Positions 21,855 through 27,386 of a stretch of 64,000 nt of DNA are shown one piece after another (the stretch's first letter is position 1; each line of letters opens with the position of its first letter). Position numbers and translations under genes: made by a program. Source of the DNA: Pseudohongiella sp. Lineage in GTDB: Bacteria; Pseudomonadota; Gammaproteobacteria; Pseudomonadales; Pseudohongiellaceae. Location of the stretch: the NCBI RefSeq assembly GCF_011050365.1, contig NZ_DRFV01000001.1:124001-188000 (forward strand). Reading direction: 5' to 3'. The notes beneath the pieces are model-generated. The model saw only the letters and a program-made list of their open reading frames with translations. It was not told the DNA's origin and made no database searches.

Positions 21855-21928
21855 TGGAGCGGGTGAAGGGAATCGAACCCTCGTCGTAAGCTTGGGAAGC
21901 TTCTGCTCTGCCATTGAGCTACACCCGC
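21855..21928 (-). tRNA. tRNA-Gly (anticodon CCC)
   Basis: Read on the minus strand, a 74-nt cloverleaf with encoded CCA: acceptor GCGGGTG pairs with CACCCGC, T-arm has GGGTTCGATTCCC, and the anticodon loop is TTCCCAA, giving CCC. The sequence closely tracks the known tRNA-Gly(CCC) of E. coli. The first pair of the anticodon stem appears to be G-A rather than Watson-Crick. Confidence 0.95.
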
Positions 21929-21982: not shown

Positions 21983-23236
21983 TCAGACGCTATCGAAGCC
22001 TGAGCGGAAACAACCGGTAATGCCTTTGTATTGTGATACCGTCCAGCCGATGCGCTTGTTCAGCGTGTCCACCGGAAGCGCGGGGGCGATCACCACCGAA
22101 CGCGGGGGCGGGGTGTTGCCCAGATTGTCCGCGAGCCAATCACTGTAGTTCAGACACCACTGCCTGATGTCATCCGGTGCGTGTTCCAGCACAACAAAAT
22201 AATGCAATCCGGTCTGACCCTCGTGGCTGTCACTGCGGACACGGGCGTCGACGACATCCGTGTGTTGCTGCAGTGCTGTTTCCAGTTGGGCGAGATTGAC
22301 GTTGTTGCCGTGAATCTGCACCACCGGGTCGGTTCTGCCCAGCAGAGTGATATGGCTGTCGTCATGCTGCTGTAATTTATCGTGCAATTGATGCTGCTGG
22401 CCGTCGTCCCTGTCCTGCACTATCCAGTGCTCTTGCTGCTGGCTCAGCGTCCAGAACGATAGCAGGGTGAAGGGCGTATTGTCCTGCTGGCGCCATGCCA
22501 GGCCGGCGGTTTCGCTGCTGCCATACACTTCGATCAGTGTGGCATTGGCATATTGCCGACGAATGGCGGCGGCAGTGTCGGCCGGCAGCGGGGCGGTCGA
22601 ACTGATGCCGGTGAACGTGTCAGGAAGCGACACCTGATGCGTCAGCAACATGGACCAGATGTCCGGCGTTGCCGCGATAACATCACCATCGCGCAGTTGC
22701 CGGGTCCAGGTGGCCGGCAGTTCGCGCGCCGGCTTTACACGGAGGCGCTCACAGCCCAGTGCCGAGGGCAGCAGTATGCTCCAGATAAAGCCGTAAATAT
22801 GATGCGACGGTACCGTGCTGACCACGCGTCCGGCTGTCGGCAGCAACGCCCGAAAGGCATCGATTTCGCGCTGTAATTTGCTCAGCGCATGAGCGGCAGG
22901 TGTGGGCTCGCCGGTAGATCCGGAGGAGTAGAAATGCAGGCTGCTGTCGTCAATGGCCAGGCTGCGTCGGGCGACGCCGGTCCAGCCTTCGGCCGACCGT
23001 CTGGCCAGTAGCAGGTCGGATACACCGGTGCGGTCCAGGCCCAGCATGTGAGCAAAACGACGCGCCAGCTCGACCATGTCGAGCGAGGCGAGTCCGAAAT
23101 GACGGGGATGCGTCAGCAGGTCAGTTGGCTGGGTGTCTGCCTCAAGGAGCAGATCACCCAGGCCGCGTCGTTGCAGGGCATCGCTGAGAAAGTCGTCCAG
23201 ATAACTTTCCAGTAGCCCCGGTTGTTGCCACCACAT
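21983..23236 (-). CDS. Adenylate-forming ligase, probably PYP chromophore-activating p-coumarate:CoA ligase
   Basis: A 417-residue short AMP-binding enzyme. Core motifs are the phosphate loop YSSGSTGEPTP (the usual lysine after the proline is missing), YGSSETAG, LGRTDPVVQIHG and the C-terminal catalytic lysine in LPVDTLNKR. It begins 3 bp after the photoactive yellow protein gene on the same strand, so the two are almost certainly co-transcribed. In other bacteria PYP genes sit beside a p-coumarate:CoA ligase that activates the chromophore for attachment to the PYP cysteine; assigning that job here is inference from context. Residues 48-59 (GLASLDMVELAR) resemble the phosphopantetheine helix of acyl carrier proteins. 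Family is firm; substrate is inferred. Confidence 0.75.
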   Translation of the reverse strand: MWWQQPGLLESYLDDFLSDALQRRGLGDLLLEADTQPTDLLTHPRHFGLASLDMVELARRFAHMLGLDRTGVSDLLLARRSAEGWTGVARRSLAIDDSSLHFYSSGSTGEPTPAAHALSKLQREIDAFRALLPTAGRVVSTVPSHHIYGFIWSILLPSALGCERLRVKPARELPATWTRQLRDGDVIAATPDIWSMLLTHQVSLPDTFTGISSTAPLPADTAAAIRRQYANATLIEVYGSSETAGLAWRQQDNTPFTLLSFWTLSQQQEHWIVQDRDDGQQHQLHDKLQQHDDSHITLLGRTDPVVQIHGNNVNLAQLETALQQHTDVVDARVRSDSHEGQTGLHYFVVLEHAPDDIRQWCLNYSDWLADNLGNTPPPRSVVIAPALPVDTLNKRIGWTVSQYKGITGCFRSGFDSV

Positions 23237-23239
23237 GGA

Positions 23240-23620
23240 TCAGAGTCTTTTAACAAAGATCCAGAAGCTGCCACCCACCAGTGCCGGTTTCATATGAACT
23301 TTTACTTTGGTTGGTGTCATCTGGTAGTCAAAGGTGTACTCCAGCATGACGCTGCCGCGGTCGGCGACGACCTTGTCAAAGGCGCCCTTGAACTTGGGCG
23401 TATTGGTGCAGGGCGCAACATCGGTGAAGAAGTTTTTGCCGATCACCTGGCCGGGTGAGCGACCGGTGATCGCGCCTTCGGCTTCATTGTATTGCTGAAT
23501 AACGCCATTGGCATCCAGTTGAATCGCGCCAAAAGCCAGGTCGTCGATTTGTGACGTGCTCATGTTGGCCAGTTTGTTGTCGATATCCGAGGCGCCAAAA
23601 TCAATAACTTCCAATGACAT
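23240..23620 (-). CDS. pyp: Photoactive yellow protein (blue-light sensor)
   Basis: A 126-residue PAS-fold photoreceptor matching the length (125) and sequence of Halorhodospira PYP. Stretches such as [39 protein letters not shown] and [18 protein letters not shown] are nearly identical to that protein. All chromophore-pocket residues are present with a +2 offset: Tyr44, Glu48, Thr52, Arg54 and the chromophore-anchoring Cys71; Met101 corresponds to Met100 after a one-residue loop deletion. PYP binds p-coumaric acid by a thioester and undergoes a photocycle with blue light. It is followed 3 bp later by a ligase gene. No output domain is fused, so the signalling partner is unknown. A clear GGAG ribosome site precedes the ATG. 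Confidence 0.96.
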
Positions 23621-23720: not shown

Positions 23721-23735
23721 AATGATCGGATCATT
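23721..23735. promoter_or_regulatory. Palindrome upstream of pyp
   Basis: AATGATCGGATCATT, two 7-bp arms around one base, overlaps the stop codon of the Sel1-repeat gene about 100 bp upstream of pyp. It may be an operator for the pyp unit; it is too tight to form a good hairpin. AT-rich sequence with CAACAAA repeats fills the rest of the 113-bp gap. Confidence 0.3.
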
Positions 23736-24903
23736 ACGGCGGGTTATTATTGGCGTCCGTATTTTCATCCGGTATCCGGGTTACGCGGACAGTGTCCGGA
23801 TTTTGTTCCGCGTATGCGCGCATCCAGCGAGCGGCCATCAGACGGGCCTGCAGGGTGGTTTCTTCGTCCATTTCAGCGCTCAGGCGCTCAAGTGAACTGA
23901 TCGCATGTTCATAACCAAAACGGTATGCCAGTTCGTACCACATGTGGGCAATGGCGAGGTTCTGCTCTATACCCAGACCGTCAGCGAAAATACGCGCCAG
24001 AAAGTATTGTGCGGTGGCGTCGCCGCGGTGGGCGGAGCGATTGAACCAGTAGCGTGCCTGCTCGTAATCACGCGCAACACCTGCCTGATCTCCGGTCGCA
24101 TACAGAATGCCAAGCCGCGTTTGTGCATCCCGCAGTCCCTGCTCGGCCGCCAGTCTGAAATAATCCCGCGCCTGCGCGGCATCGCGCTCAACGCCCTGGC
24201 CGGTGGCGTACATCAGCGCCGCATTGTACTGCGCGTCAGCGCTGCCATTGTCGGCGGCCATGGTAAACCAGGTCAGCGCTGCGGTCGGGTTGGGTTCACT
24301 CACCAGACCACTGATCAGCAGCACGCCCAGATTATATTGTGAATCGCGGTGACCCTGGCGTGCGGCTTCCTGATACCAGCGCATGGCTTCGGGGAAATTC
24401 TCCGCCCGGCCCTGACCGTAAAAGTTCATGGTGCCAACGGCATACTGGGCATTGGCATCGCCCTGTTGGGCGGCCTGTTCGTACCAGTAATAGGCTTCCC
24501 GGTAATTCTGTTCTGTGCCCTGGCCCTGATCATACATGACGCCCAGACTGAACTGCGCGCTGACGATACCTTGCTGGGCAGACAATGCGTAGAGTTGCAT
24601 GGCGCGTTCGAAATTTTGCTCGGTCCCGATGCCCTGATGATACATCAGCGCCAGATTGTACTGGGCGATGGCGTGGCCGATCATCGCGCCTTCGGTGAAG
24701 ACACTCAGCGCCGTGTCGTAGTCTTCGTTTTGAAACGCTTCGAGCCCCACTTCCACTGCGAAGCGCTCGCTGGCGGCCGCATCCGCCGCCGGAACGTCGG
24801 CTGCTGGTTGATCCTGAGCCTGTGCCAGCGCCGCCTGTGACAGGCAACCGCATAGCATCAGTGTGGTCAATCGTCGGGATAGTCGGAGAGAAGTTGAAAT
24901 CAT
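23734..24903 (-). CDS. Exported Sel1-repeat protein
   Basis: About 389 residues with a signal peptide (RRLTTLMLCGCLSQAALAQAQ), then about eight Sel1-like (TPR-related) repeats of roughly 36 residues. Each has the pattern AxYNLALMYxxGxGTEQNxxxAxxxYxxAAxQG, for example MYHQGIGTEQNFERAMQLY and MYATGQGVERDAAQARDYF. Such solenoids mediate protein-protein contacts in the periplasm or at the outer membrane. The start at 24903 is chosen over 24939 because the signal peptide follows directly. It lies upstream of pyp on the same strand but 113 bp away, so co-transcription is uncertain. Partner proteins are unknown. Confidence 0.88.
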   Translation of the reverse strand: MISTSLRLSRRLTTLMLCGCLSQAALAQAQDQPAADVPAADAAASERFAVEVGLEAFQNEDYDTALSVFTEGAMIGHAIAQYNLALMYHQGIGTEQNFERAMQLYALSAQQGIVSAQFSLGVMYDQGQGTEQNYREAYYWYEQAAQQGDANAQYAVGTMNFYGQGRAENFPEAMRWYQEAARQGHRDSQYNLGVLLISGLVSEPNPTAALTWFTMAADNGSADAQYNAALMYATGQGVERDAAQARDYFRLAAEQGLRDAQTRLGILYATGDQAGVARDYEQARYWFNRSAHRGDATAQYFLARIFADGLGIEQNLAIAHMWYELAYRFGYEHAISSLERLSAEMDEETTLQARLMAARWMRAYAEQNPDTVRVTRIPDENTDANNNPP

Positions 24904-24942
24904 GGCCTGATTGTAGCTTGGCGCACTGACGATAGCCAATGT

Positions 24943-25019
24943 TGGTCGGAGTGAGAGGATTCGAACCTCCGACCCCTGCCTCCCGAAGGCAGTGCTCTAC
25001 CAGGCTGAGCTACACTCCG
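24943..25019 (-). tRNA. tRNA-Pro (anticodon CGG)
   Basis: On the minus strand, a 77-nt cloverleaf with encoded CCA: acceptor CGGAGTG pairs with CACTCCG, the anticodon stem CTGCC/GGCAG encloses TTCGGGA, giving CGG, and the T-arm has GGTTCGAATCC. The C1-G72 start is typical of bacterial tRNA-Pro. Confidence 0.95.
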
Positions 25020-25649: not shown

Positions 25650-27386
25650 TCAGGTACGGCGGATGGCGTCAACGGCGGCCAACAGTAGCTTTCTGCTGAA
25701 GGGTTTGTCCAGTGTTACAGACGGTTTCAGTGCCTGGATCGCGTTGCGTTCGCTCTCATTGAGGTTGCCGGATATCAACAGCACCGGCAGCGAAGGCCGG
25801 GTCGCCCGCACCCGGGTAGCCAACTCTACGCCGGTCATGCCGGGCATGGCCTGATCGGTCATCAGCAGGTCGATACGGTCGCCAGGGTTGGTCTCAAAGT
25901 GTTGCAGCGCATCGGCCGGTGAATTGAACTCAATGACCTGTATGTCTTCACGTTGCAGGGTCATGCGAATGGTAGCCCTGACCAGTTCTTCGTCATCAAC
26001 CACCATTACCCGGTAGGCAGCGGTTGGTGAGACTGATGGCGTGATCCCGGTCAGGCTGCCCGCTGCGTCCGTCGGTGGCGATACTGTTCTGAACTTCAGC
26101 GAGAACTCTGTACCTTGCTGCGGTGTCGAGCTCATTCGAATACTGCCGCCCAGCTGAGTGACCAGTTTATGCACGATGGCCAGTCCCAGACCGGTGCCAT
26201 CGCCCGTTTCCCGGGTGGTAAAAAAGGGTTCGAAAATCCGGTGGCGAATGGCAGGGTCAATACCTGTGCCGGTATCGCTGACCGTCAGCAATACCTGGTC
26301 TCCGGAACCCAGCAGATCCAGTCTGAACTCCAACAGCCCGCCCTGCGGTTTCATGGCCAGACAACCATTGGTGCCCAGGTTCATGAAGATCTGGTGGAGC
26401 ATGTCCGGTGTTGCCAGCACACAGACATCAGGCGCATTGAGGGTTTCCCGGATGCTGATATTGGCAGGCATGCTGCTGCGCAGCAGGGCGGCGGTTTCGT
26501 GCAGCACCGGAGTTATCGGGGTGCTGCTGGCATTGGCATCATTCTGCTGACTGAAGCTCAGGATACGTTTGACCAGTTGTGCTGCTCGCTCCGCCGAGGT
26601 GATGGCATTGTTGATGTGTTGTCGCTGGGTACTGTCGGGAGACGCCAGTTCGCGCGCTTCTTCGCTGGCCATGAGAATGGGCTGTAGCAGGTTGTTGAAG
26701 TCGTGGGCGATGCCACTGGCCATGGTGCCAAGCGCACTCAGCTTCTGTGAGTGCAGTAATTGCTCCTGCAGCTGTTCGCGCTCTTTCAGCGACTCGGCGA
26801 TGCGCTGGCGGGAGGACTCCAGTTCGATCATGGTGGATTCCAGGCTGCCCAGCAACCGCGCCGTGGTCAGCGAGCCCAGAATACAAAGAAACAGCATGGT
26901 GCCACTGACGCCAAACCAGGATTCCAGCGTGTAAACCAGGTCGCCGTACATCGGGTTGGGTGAGCGTGCCAGCACCAGCAGCGCGGCATAGACCAGCACG
27001 ATCAGTACCGCAAACGCGATGCCGACGAAGGCACCGCGATACCCAAAAAACAGCGCGGACAGCATTGGTACGGTCAGCAGCCATTCGGTGCCGGCACCCA
27101 CCGGCCCAAGGATCCAGAGCAAAAATACACCCACCGCAGACCACAGGACGAGGAACAGTCCTGCGCGCAGGTGATAGGGTAACCGTTTTGCCATGGCCAG
27201 CATGATCACCGCGATCCAGGCGATGTTGTCGATGATCAGCAGGCTCCAGATTTCAAGCTGATATGCCAGTATCACACTGGGTATATAGGCGATGCTGACC
27301 AGTGCAGCGGTCGCCCACAAAGTGGTCTGCAAGATGCGCTGGCGGATGCCAAGCATGCTGCGGCTGATGTTGATGACGGCGGACAT
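25650..27386 (-). CDS. Membrane hybrid histidine kinase with C-terminal receiver
   Basis: A 578-residue sensor. The N-terminal region has about six membrane helices (residues 20-170) without a recognised periplasmic sensor domain. A coiled stretch (residues 180-215) leads to the phospho-acceptor His228 in GIAHDFNNLL, an NtrB-like H-box. The ATPase domain carries NLGTNGCLAM, DTGTGIDPAIRHRIFEPFFTT and GDGTGLGLAIVHKL. A receiver domain follows (about residues 455-578) with the phosphorylatable Asp in LLMTDQAMPG and a conserved Lys near the end in LDKPFS. There is no output domain, so the phosphate probably passes to a separate regulator elsewhere. Genes on either side do not define the signal. 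Confidence 0.92.
   Translation of the reverse strand: MSAVINISRSMLGIRQRILQTTLWATAALVSIAYIPSVILAYQLEIWSLLIIDNIAWIAVIMLAMAKRLPYHLRAGLFLVLWSAVGVFLLWILGPVGAGTEWLLTVPMLSALFFGYRGAFVGIAFAVLIVLVYAALLVLARSPNPMYGDLVYTLESWFGVSGTMLFLCILGSLTTARLLGSLESTMIELESSRQRIAESLKEREQLQEQLLHSQKLSALGTMASGIAHDFNNLLQPILMASEEARELASPDSTQRQHINNAITSAERAAQLVKRILSFSQQNDANASSTPITPVLHETAALLRSSMPANISIRETLNAPDVCVLATPDMLHQIFMNLGTNGCLAMKPQGGLLEFRLDLLGSGDQVLLTVSDTGTGIDPAIRHRIFEPFFTTRETGDGTGLGLAIVHKLVTQLGGSIRMSSTPQQGTEFSLKFRTVSPPTDAAGSLTGITPSVSPTAAYRVMVVDDEELVRATIRMTLQREDIQVIEFNSPADALQHFETNPGDRIDLLMTDQAMPGMTGVELATRVRATRPSLPVLLISGNLNESERNAIQALKPSVTLDKPFSRKLLLAAVDAIRRT

Follow-up and report, generated by a model that had tools for sequence, protein, structure and literature searches.

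Introduction

In Halorhodospira halophila, the operon for photoactive yellow protein (PYP) comprises pyp, the ligase gene pCL and the tyrosine ammonia-lyase gene TAL (PMC12826048), and in the pathway stated there the ligase, whose activity is described as demonstrated, makes p-coumaryl-CoA, which then reacts with apo-PYP. A 2014 paper gives only "hints" of a 4-coumarate--CoA ligase for the PYP case in its accessible portion (PMC3992019). Across 113 predicted pyp operons TAL is rare (7 operons) and the ligase is found in 42, which makes a ligase without TAL the commoner arrangement; a TAL encoded elsewhere or uptake of p-coumarate has been proposed (PMC12826048), and histidine or phenylalanine ammonia-lyase (HAL or PAL) has been suggested to stand in for TAL in relatives that lack it (PMC9664959).

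Here we describe a PYP gene and its neighbouring ligase in a 64,000-nucleotide stretch of a Pseudohongiella sp. genome (hereafter the window; assembly GCF_011050365.1, contig NZ_DRFV01000001.1, positions 124,001 to 188,000 of the forward strand). The ligase appears to begin with a domain resembling an acyl carrier protein, and this architecture, common to all PYP-linked ligases that we examined, is undescribed as far as our searches reached. An earlier sequence-only reading of the window had portrayed known PYP loci as combining TAL with the ligase, a picture that fits Halorhodospira but only a small part of the predicted operons, and had called PYP rare, against which stand 984 reported homologues (PMC12826048). 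No paper dealing with Pseudohongiella and PYP together was found in the literature searched, outside which many subscription papers lie.

A conserved PYP-ligase pair

The PYP gene (window 23240..23620, minus strand) encodes 126 amino acids and matched TIGR02373 with 182.2 bits, above the curated cut-off of 143.05. Tyr44, Glu48, Thr52, Arg54 and Cys71 (positions 42, 46, 50, 52 and 69 in H. halophila) are all present and the closest solved structures are themselves PYPs, which upholds the earlier description of an intact protein with its chromophore pocket. The PYP-linked p-coumarate ligase gene (21983..23236, minus strand, 417 amino acids) follows the PYP stop codon after 3 bp on the same strand, and this spacing, together with a gene order kept in relatives, makes an operon likely, as had been proposed. 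We sampled 15 Pseudohongiella genomes, 11 of which carry a PYP over the TIGR02373 cut-off, and PYP with an adjacent ligase was recovered as open frames in 11 of the 15. PYP is 82-96% identical to the window protein across the PYP-bearing genomes, and its ratio of nonsynonymous to synonymous differences (pN/pS) was 0.03-0.07 in five genome pairs drawn from four genomes, two of them without a lyase (window genome against lyase-less G007, 0.03; against lyase-less G012, 0.07). PYP is under strong purifying selection; given this and the number of genomes that keep both frames open, the pair is not a chance arrangement.

As in H. halophila, PYP is followed by a PYP-type ligase and the genome holds a TAL-type lyase; unlike there, the lyase is unlinked, and profile and protein searches found no lyase of its family (PF00221) in 8 of the 11 PYP-bearing Pseudohongiella genomes. 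We regard the locus as a blue-light receptor unit of Pseudohongiella, in which PYP is encoded with its own chromophore-loading enzyme and would respond to light.

The ligase and its carrier-like front domain

Against TIGR02372, the 4-coumarate--CoA ligase model, the window ligase scored 213.5 bits, below the cut-off of 334.7, and it has a residue other than Asp before the serine described below. It is nevertheless homologous to that family over most of its length, has the same N-terminal domain as the members over the cut-off that we examined (L026, L027, L029 and L082), and the same cut-off is missed by five of eight other PYP-linked ligases scanned (L030, L031, L039, L038 and L024); judged by its sequence, it belongs with the PYP-linked ligases despite the low score. 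A TIGR02372 survey of two genome sets at E <= 1e-40 returned no match in 362 of 369 and 395 of 398 genomes.

Residues 98-417 (21986..22945, minus strand) make up a shortened adenylating core and the C-terminal domain, with 59.8 bits for PF00501 (above its cut-off of 29.9) and 22.6 bits for PF13193 (just below its cut-off of 24.5); the Pfam AMP-binding match starts at model position 129 of 384. Lys394, which we take for the counterpart of the ANL catalytic lysine, is conserved in 20 of 21 aligned ligases, and the structural matches of the full model assign the core fold to the ANL superfamily. Adenylating enzymes solved with carriers (PltF-PigG and EntE-EntB) and DltA share this fold and stand among the top structural matches, PltF-PigG and DltA about level with CoA ligases; unlike in these enzymes, the carrier-like domain of the window ligase is N-terminal and stands where the Pfam AMP-binding model goes unmatched over its first ~128 positions.

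This front domain (ligase residues 1-97, 22946..23236, minus strand; longer helices predicted at residues 8-23, 51-64, 72-78 and 82-96) corresponds to the first ~97 residues of PYP-linked ligases, which have it in common, its consensus containing LGxDSLD. We compared 32 such ligases, each with a PYP or PYP-like gene adjacent or one gene away: 11 from Pseudohongiella, 15 from other chromosomes or metagenome-assembled genomes (among them two strains of a single species) and, as a fresh set added afterwards, 6 encoded on plasmids. A phosphopantetheine-type serine, Ser51 in the window ligase (codon 23084..23086, minus strand, computed from the start at 23236), was present as a candidate attachment site in 32 of 32, even where identity to the window ligase falls to 26%, and the motif DS[LI] in all 21 sequences outside Pseudohongiella (counted by eye), the ligases of Halovibrio and Indioceanicola having the canonical DSL. 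The domain is missing from L088 and L120, two TIGR02372-like ligases whose genomes have no PYP above the cut-off, but as a control this pair is small, and both also score as more distant, with 148.5 and 153.1 bits; of the control genomes, G208 gave two weak PYP matches of 21-22 bits and G777 none.

Profile-profile comparison with the carrier family (hhalign) gave a score of 30.0 (probability 76), compared with a mean of 8.7 and a maximum of 16.8 for 200 column shuffles, one value of which may be a repeat; the score was 31.0 with all 32 sequences and 27.1 (probability 60.4) with a Pseudohongiella-only profile, the shuffle background coming from a different profile. With an acyl carrier protein hidden Markov model, 18 of the 32 domains scored above the best of 3200 shuffled sequences. 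The front-domain model was confident (pLDDT 92.2), a helix begins at Ser51, and we read 49 of the 50 listed structural matches as carrier proteins. Since the profile comparison, the confident model and the structural matches agree, ligase residues 1-97 appear to resemble an acyl carrier protein. The domain is like acyl and peptidyl carrier proteins (PF00550) in its predicted helix order, in a serine that opens a helix within a DS[LI]-like motif and in profile similarity; it is unlike them in its fusion ahead of an adenylating core. We did not find this view of the PYP ligase in the literature searched, within the limits given above; the word "carrier" does not occur in the accessible portion of PMC9664959, and "acyl carrier" occurs once in that of PMC3992019, with reference to flexirubin.

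Several observations weigh against a working carrier. The Asp before the serine is lost in all 11 Pseudohongiella ligases (S, A, N or T stands instead), PF00550 was unmatched in 11 ligases at E <= 10 and in 2 more at E <= 1, the profile signal lies mostly in the motif columns and is weak once the motif is masked, and part of the front domain overlays the ordinary N-terminal subdomain of adenylating enzymes. These observations favour a reading of the protein as an ordinary p-coumarate:CoA ligase whose free p-coumaroyl-CoA acylates PYP, the front domain being carrier-derived or carrier-shaped and either replacing the missing N-terminal subdomain or docking PYP, and the published pathway is this p-coumaroyl-CoA route (PMC12826048). 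The invariant serine and, outside the genus, its invariant preceding Asp are not obviously required by packing or docking, and we consider the CoA route a serious possibility, though a somewhat doubtful one.

Proposed loading mechanism

From the two genes, the conserved pocket, the TAL-type lyase and the carrier-like domain with its invariant serine, each read from sequence or model, we infer, with a slight leaning in its favour, that PYP is loaded through a carrier in cis. In this genome the tyrosine ammonia-lyase encoded on contig C2 (described below) would supply p-coumarate, which the ligase core would adenylate and move onto a 4'-phosphopantetheine arm at Ser51 of the ligase's own front domain. 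Thioester exchange would then pass the group directly from this arm to PYP Cys71, with no free p-coumaroyl-CoA, and the p-coumaroyl group on Cys71 would be the photoactive chromophore.

Rapid change of the ligase

Across G003, G007 and G012, none of the genes compared is less conserved than the ligase. In G012 it is 52% identical to the window ligase, compared with 82-93% for the other locus genes, and within that protein (L045:8653-9906) identity falls from 79% in the front domain to 47% over residues 98-300. Values of pN/pS were 0.19-0.24 for the front domain, 0.34-0.63 for the rest of the ligase, 0.08-0.16 for three neighbours and 0.24 for TAL. Possible causes of this divergence are a new substrate, relaxed constraint and recombination, and the G012 core has undergone either replacement or very fast change. 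Such a core, changing faster than anything else at the locus, might also be taken as a sign that the PYP system is decaying in lyase-less Pseudohongiella, which would be compatible with either account of loading. However, the PYP and ligase frames are open in all 11 genomes, the identity and pN/pS of PYP given above extend to lyase-less genomes, and lyase-less G009 retains the PYP pocket residues, so that decay seems very improbable to us.

Source of p-coumarate

A whole-genome search for a tyrosine or histidine ammonia-lyase-like gene, as the sequence-only reading had advised, returned one PF00221 lyase, on contig C2 (110126-111709) and unlinked to PYP; the profile search found none in the window, in line with the earlier statement that the window lacks a TAL. 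The best solved match of the C2 lyase was 2o6y (339.5 bits), which is titled "putative histidine ammonia-lyase", has the same VHHL stretch and is, we assume, the TAL of Rhodobacter sphaeroides; the next-ranked, 2o78, has VHFL in place of VHHL. The C2 lyase contains GASGD, whose ASG triad presumably forms the 4-methylideneimidazole-5-one (MIO) group, and NLVHHLCSG, in which we take HHL to be the TAL selectivity motif; [HYA]HL was found in every PYP-neighbouring lyase with the motif region covered. In one alignment it was 41-55% identical to PYP-near lyases of other groups and 25-34% identical to HAL-type and other lyases, and blastp identity to the former was 47-59%. These features suggest a lyase of the tyrosine ammonia-lyase type, and because of the HHL motif and the grouping with PYP-near lyases, the organism most likely makes its own p-coumarate.

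Should the C2 lyase instead act on histidine or another substrate, p-coumarate would be scavenged here too, which concerns a separate step and could hold alongside either loading route. None of the eight NCBIfam lyase models listed, none of them named for a PYP-type TAL, reached its cut-off with this protein, the top-scoring being histidine-lyase models (430.3 bits for a cut-off of 524 and 417.7 for 539.15), and most PYP-bearing relatives have no detectable lyase. Against this, the HHL motif is that of 2o6y, the protein is closer to PYP-near than to HAL-type lyases, and a true HutH in our sample (L051) scored 755.9 bits. Genes for a radical-SAM protein and exonuclease III (identified by eye) flank the C2 lyase gene, and no hut genes were recognised by eye in the neighbouring frames, on which no family search was run. 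We therefore consider a histidine-type activity unlikely.

Within the genus, a PF00221 lyase was found in 3 of 15 genomes (the window genome G000, G003 and G008), all PYP-bearing, and none of the four PYP-less genomes matched the profile. Only those of G000 and G003 are of TAL type (74% identical), the G008 protein having 36% identity and the motif FHGCG; one genus thus includes two genomes with an unlinked TAL and eight with no lyase. The eight lyase-less PYP-bearing genomes are 91-100% complete, and G009 is a single contig. The exonuclease gene is present in 15 of 15 genomes and directly adjoins the radical-SAM gene, with no lyase between, in G007, G008, G009, G010, G012 and G014; for G003 and the other seven lyase-less or PYP-less genomes, the short flanks of the exonuclease gene showed no radical-SAM gene. 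The source of p-coumarate, which the sequence-only reading had left open, is thus probably settled for this genome by the unlinked C2 lyase, and the question stands for the eight genomes without a lyase.

Two candidate sources for those relatives were rejected. A histidine or phenylalanine lyase is unsupported, as 8 of 11 PYP-bearing genomes have no PF00221 match, and a tannase or feruloyl esterase (PF07519) is not common, with matches in 3 of 15 genomes (G001, G010 and G012, all PYP-bearing and lyase-less) and none in the window genome or in the other five lyase-less PYP-bearing genomes. In the lyase-less relatives, the PYP-ligase unit would have to use p-coumarate, or a hydroxycinnamate like it, that is either taken up from the surroundings or made by a route our searches did not recognise.

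Two further loci combine PYP and lyase sequences: a SAR324 contig (L035) has a PYP with an adjoining TAL-type lyase and no ligase match in that stretch, and L061 (G020:C469) contains a TAL-like frame of 323 amino acids without the middle of the enzyme, in a genome with a PYP fragment at a contig end.

Neighbouring genes and a second PYP-like gene

Comparison of PYP neighbours in relatives, also advised earlier, found the ligase beside PYP in 11 of 11 genomes. A Sel1-repeat protein gene, upstream of PYP in the window (23734..24939, minus strand), lies near PYP in nine of nine other Pseudohongiella loci (a set that leaves out G005, whose contig is short) and also precedes a PYP fragment in L041; DoxX is near PYP in five of the nine. 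A tRNA-Gly gene (21855-21928) and a tRNA-Pro gene (24943-25019) bracket the Sel1-PYP-ligase block. A hybrid kinase (25650-27386; domains MASE11, HisKA, HATPase and receiver), which slightly overlaps a DoxX gene, was rejected as a fixed partner of PYP, being near it in only two of nine other loci (L042 and L043).

The genome also encodes a second PYP-like protein of 153 amino acids (contig C6, L037:8920-9381, minus strand) at a separate locus, 32% identical to the window PYP and below the TIGR02373 cut-off (80.6 bits); of the 15 Pseudohongiella genomes, only this one gave such a second match. It keeps Tyr42, Glu46 and Cys69 and has Ala50 and Leu52, the residues given as the family consensus at those positions (PMC12826048). 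Like PYP2-type genes beside GGDEF or EAL genes, it has such a neighbour: a GGDEF-EAL gene (L037:6971-8740, minus strand) follows it after 179 bp. Both pyp operons with GGDEF/EAL genes and genomes with several PYPs have been described (PMC12826048). Relatives with 48-61% identity to it adjoin GGDEF or EAL genes in Methylobacterium, Sphingomonas and Indioceanicola; in G695 the adjoining stretch shares 55% identity with the beginning of the C6 GGDEF-EAL protein, and a carrier-type ligase occurs at all four loci. Because these relatives share their loci with a carrier-type ligase, the window ligase may act for both PYP-type receptors of this genome, of which one would have a cyclic di-GMP output.

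On plasmids L148, L149 and L150, proteins annotated as "phosphonate transporter" stand beside diguanylate cyclases, two of them from Caballeronia and truncated in the stretches analysed; the Sphingomonas protein (L150:518-880) shares 53% identity with the second PYP-like protein and is for that reason probably a mislabelled PYP-like gene. Elsewhere in the window genome, contig C3 (~47-82 kb) holds frames of up to 4312 amino acids with many carrier domains, by our reading a large cluster of the nonribosomal peptide or polyketide synthase type.

Implications

PYP is a model photoreceptor, and a working carrier domain in its ligase would revise the picture in which free p-coumaroyl-CoA acylates the protein (PMC12826048) and might offer a cleaner route to holo-PYP and to PYP-based tags. 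More broadly, and tentatively, PYP ligases may be self-loading carrier-adenylation fusions rather than CoA ligases, acylating the PYP cysteine directly, with most Pseudohongiella using a scavenged hydroxycinnamate. The patchy lyase makes the question left by PMC12826048, TAL elsewhere or uptake, testable within one genus, and if the broader proposal is true, the light sensor would be conditional on an outside compound in most Pseudohongiella.
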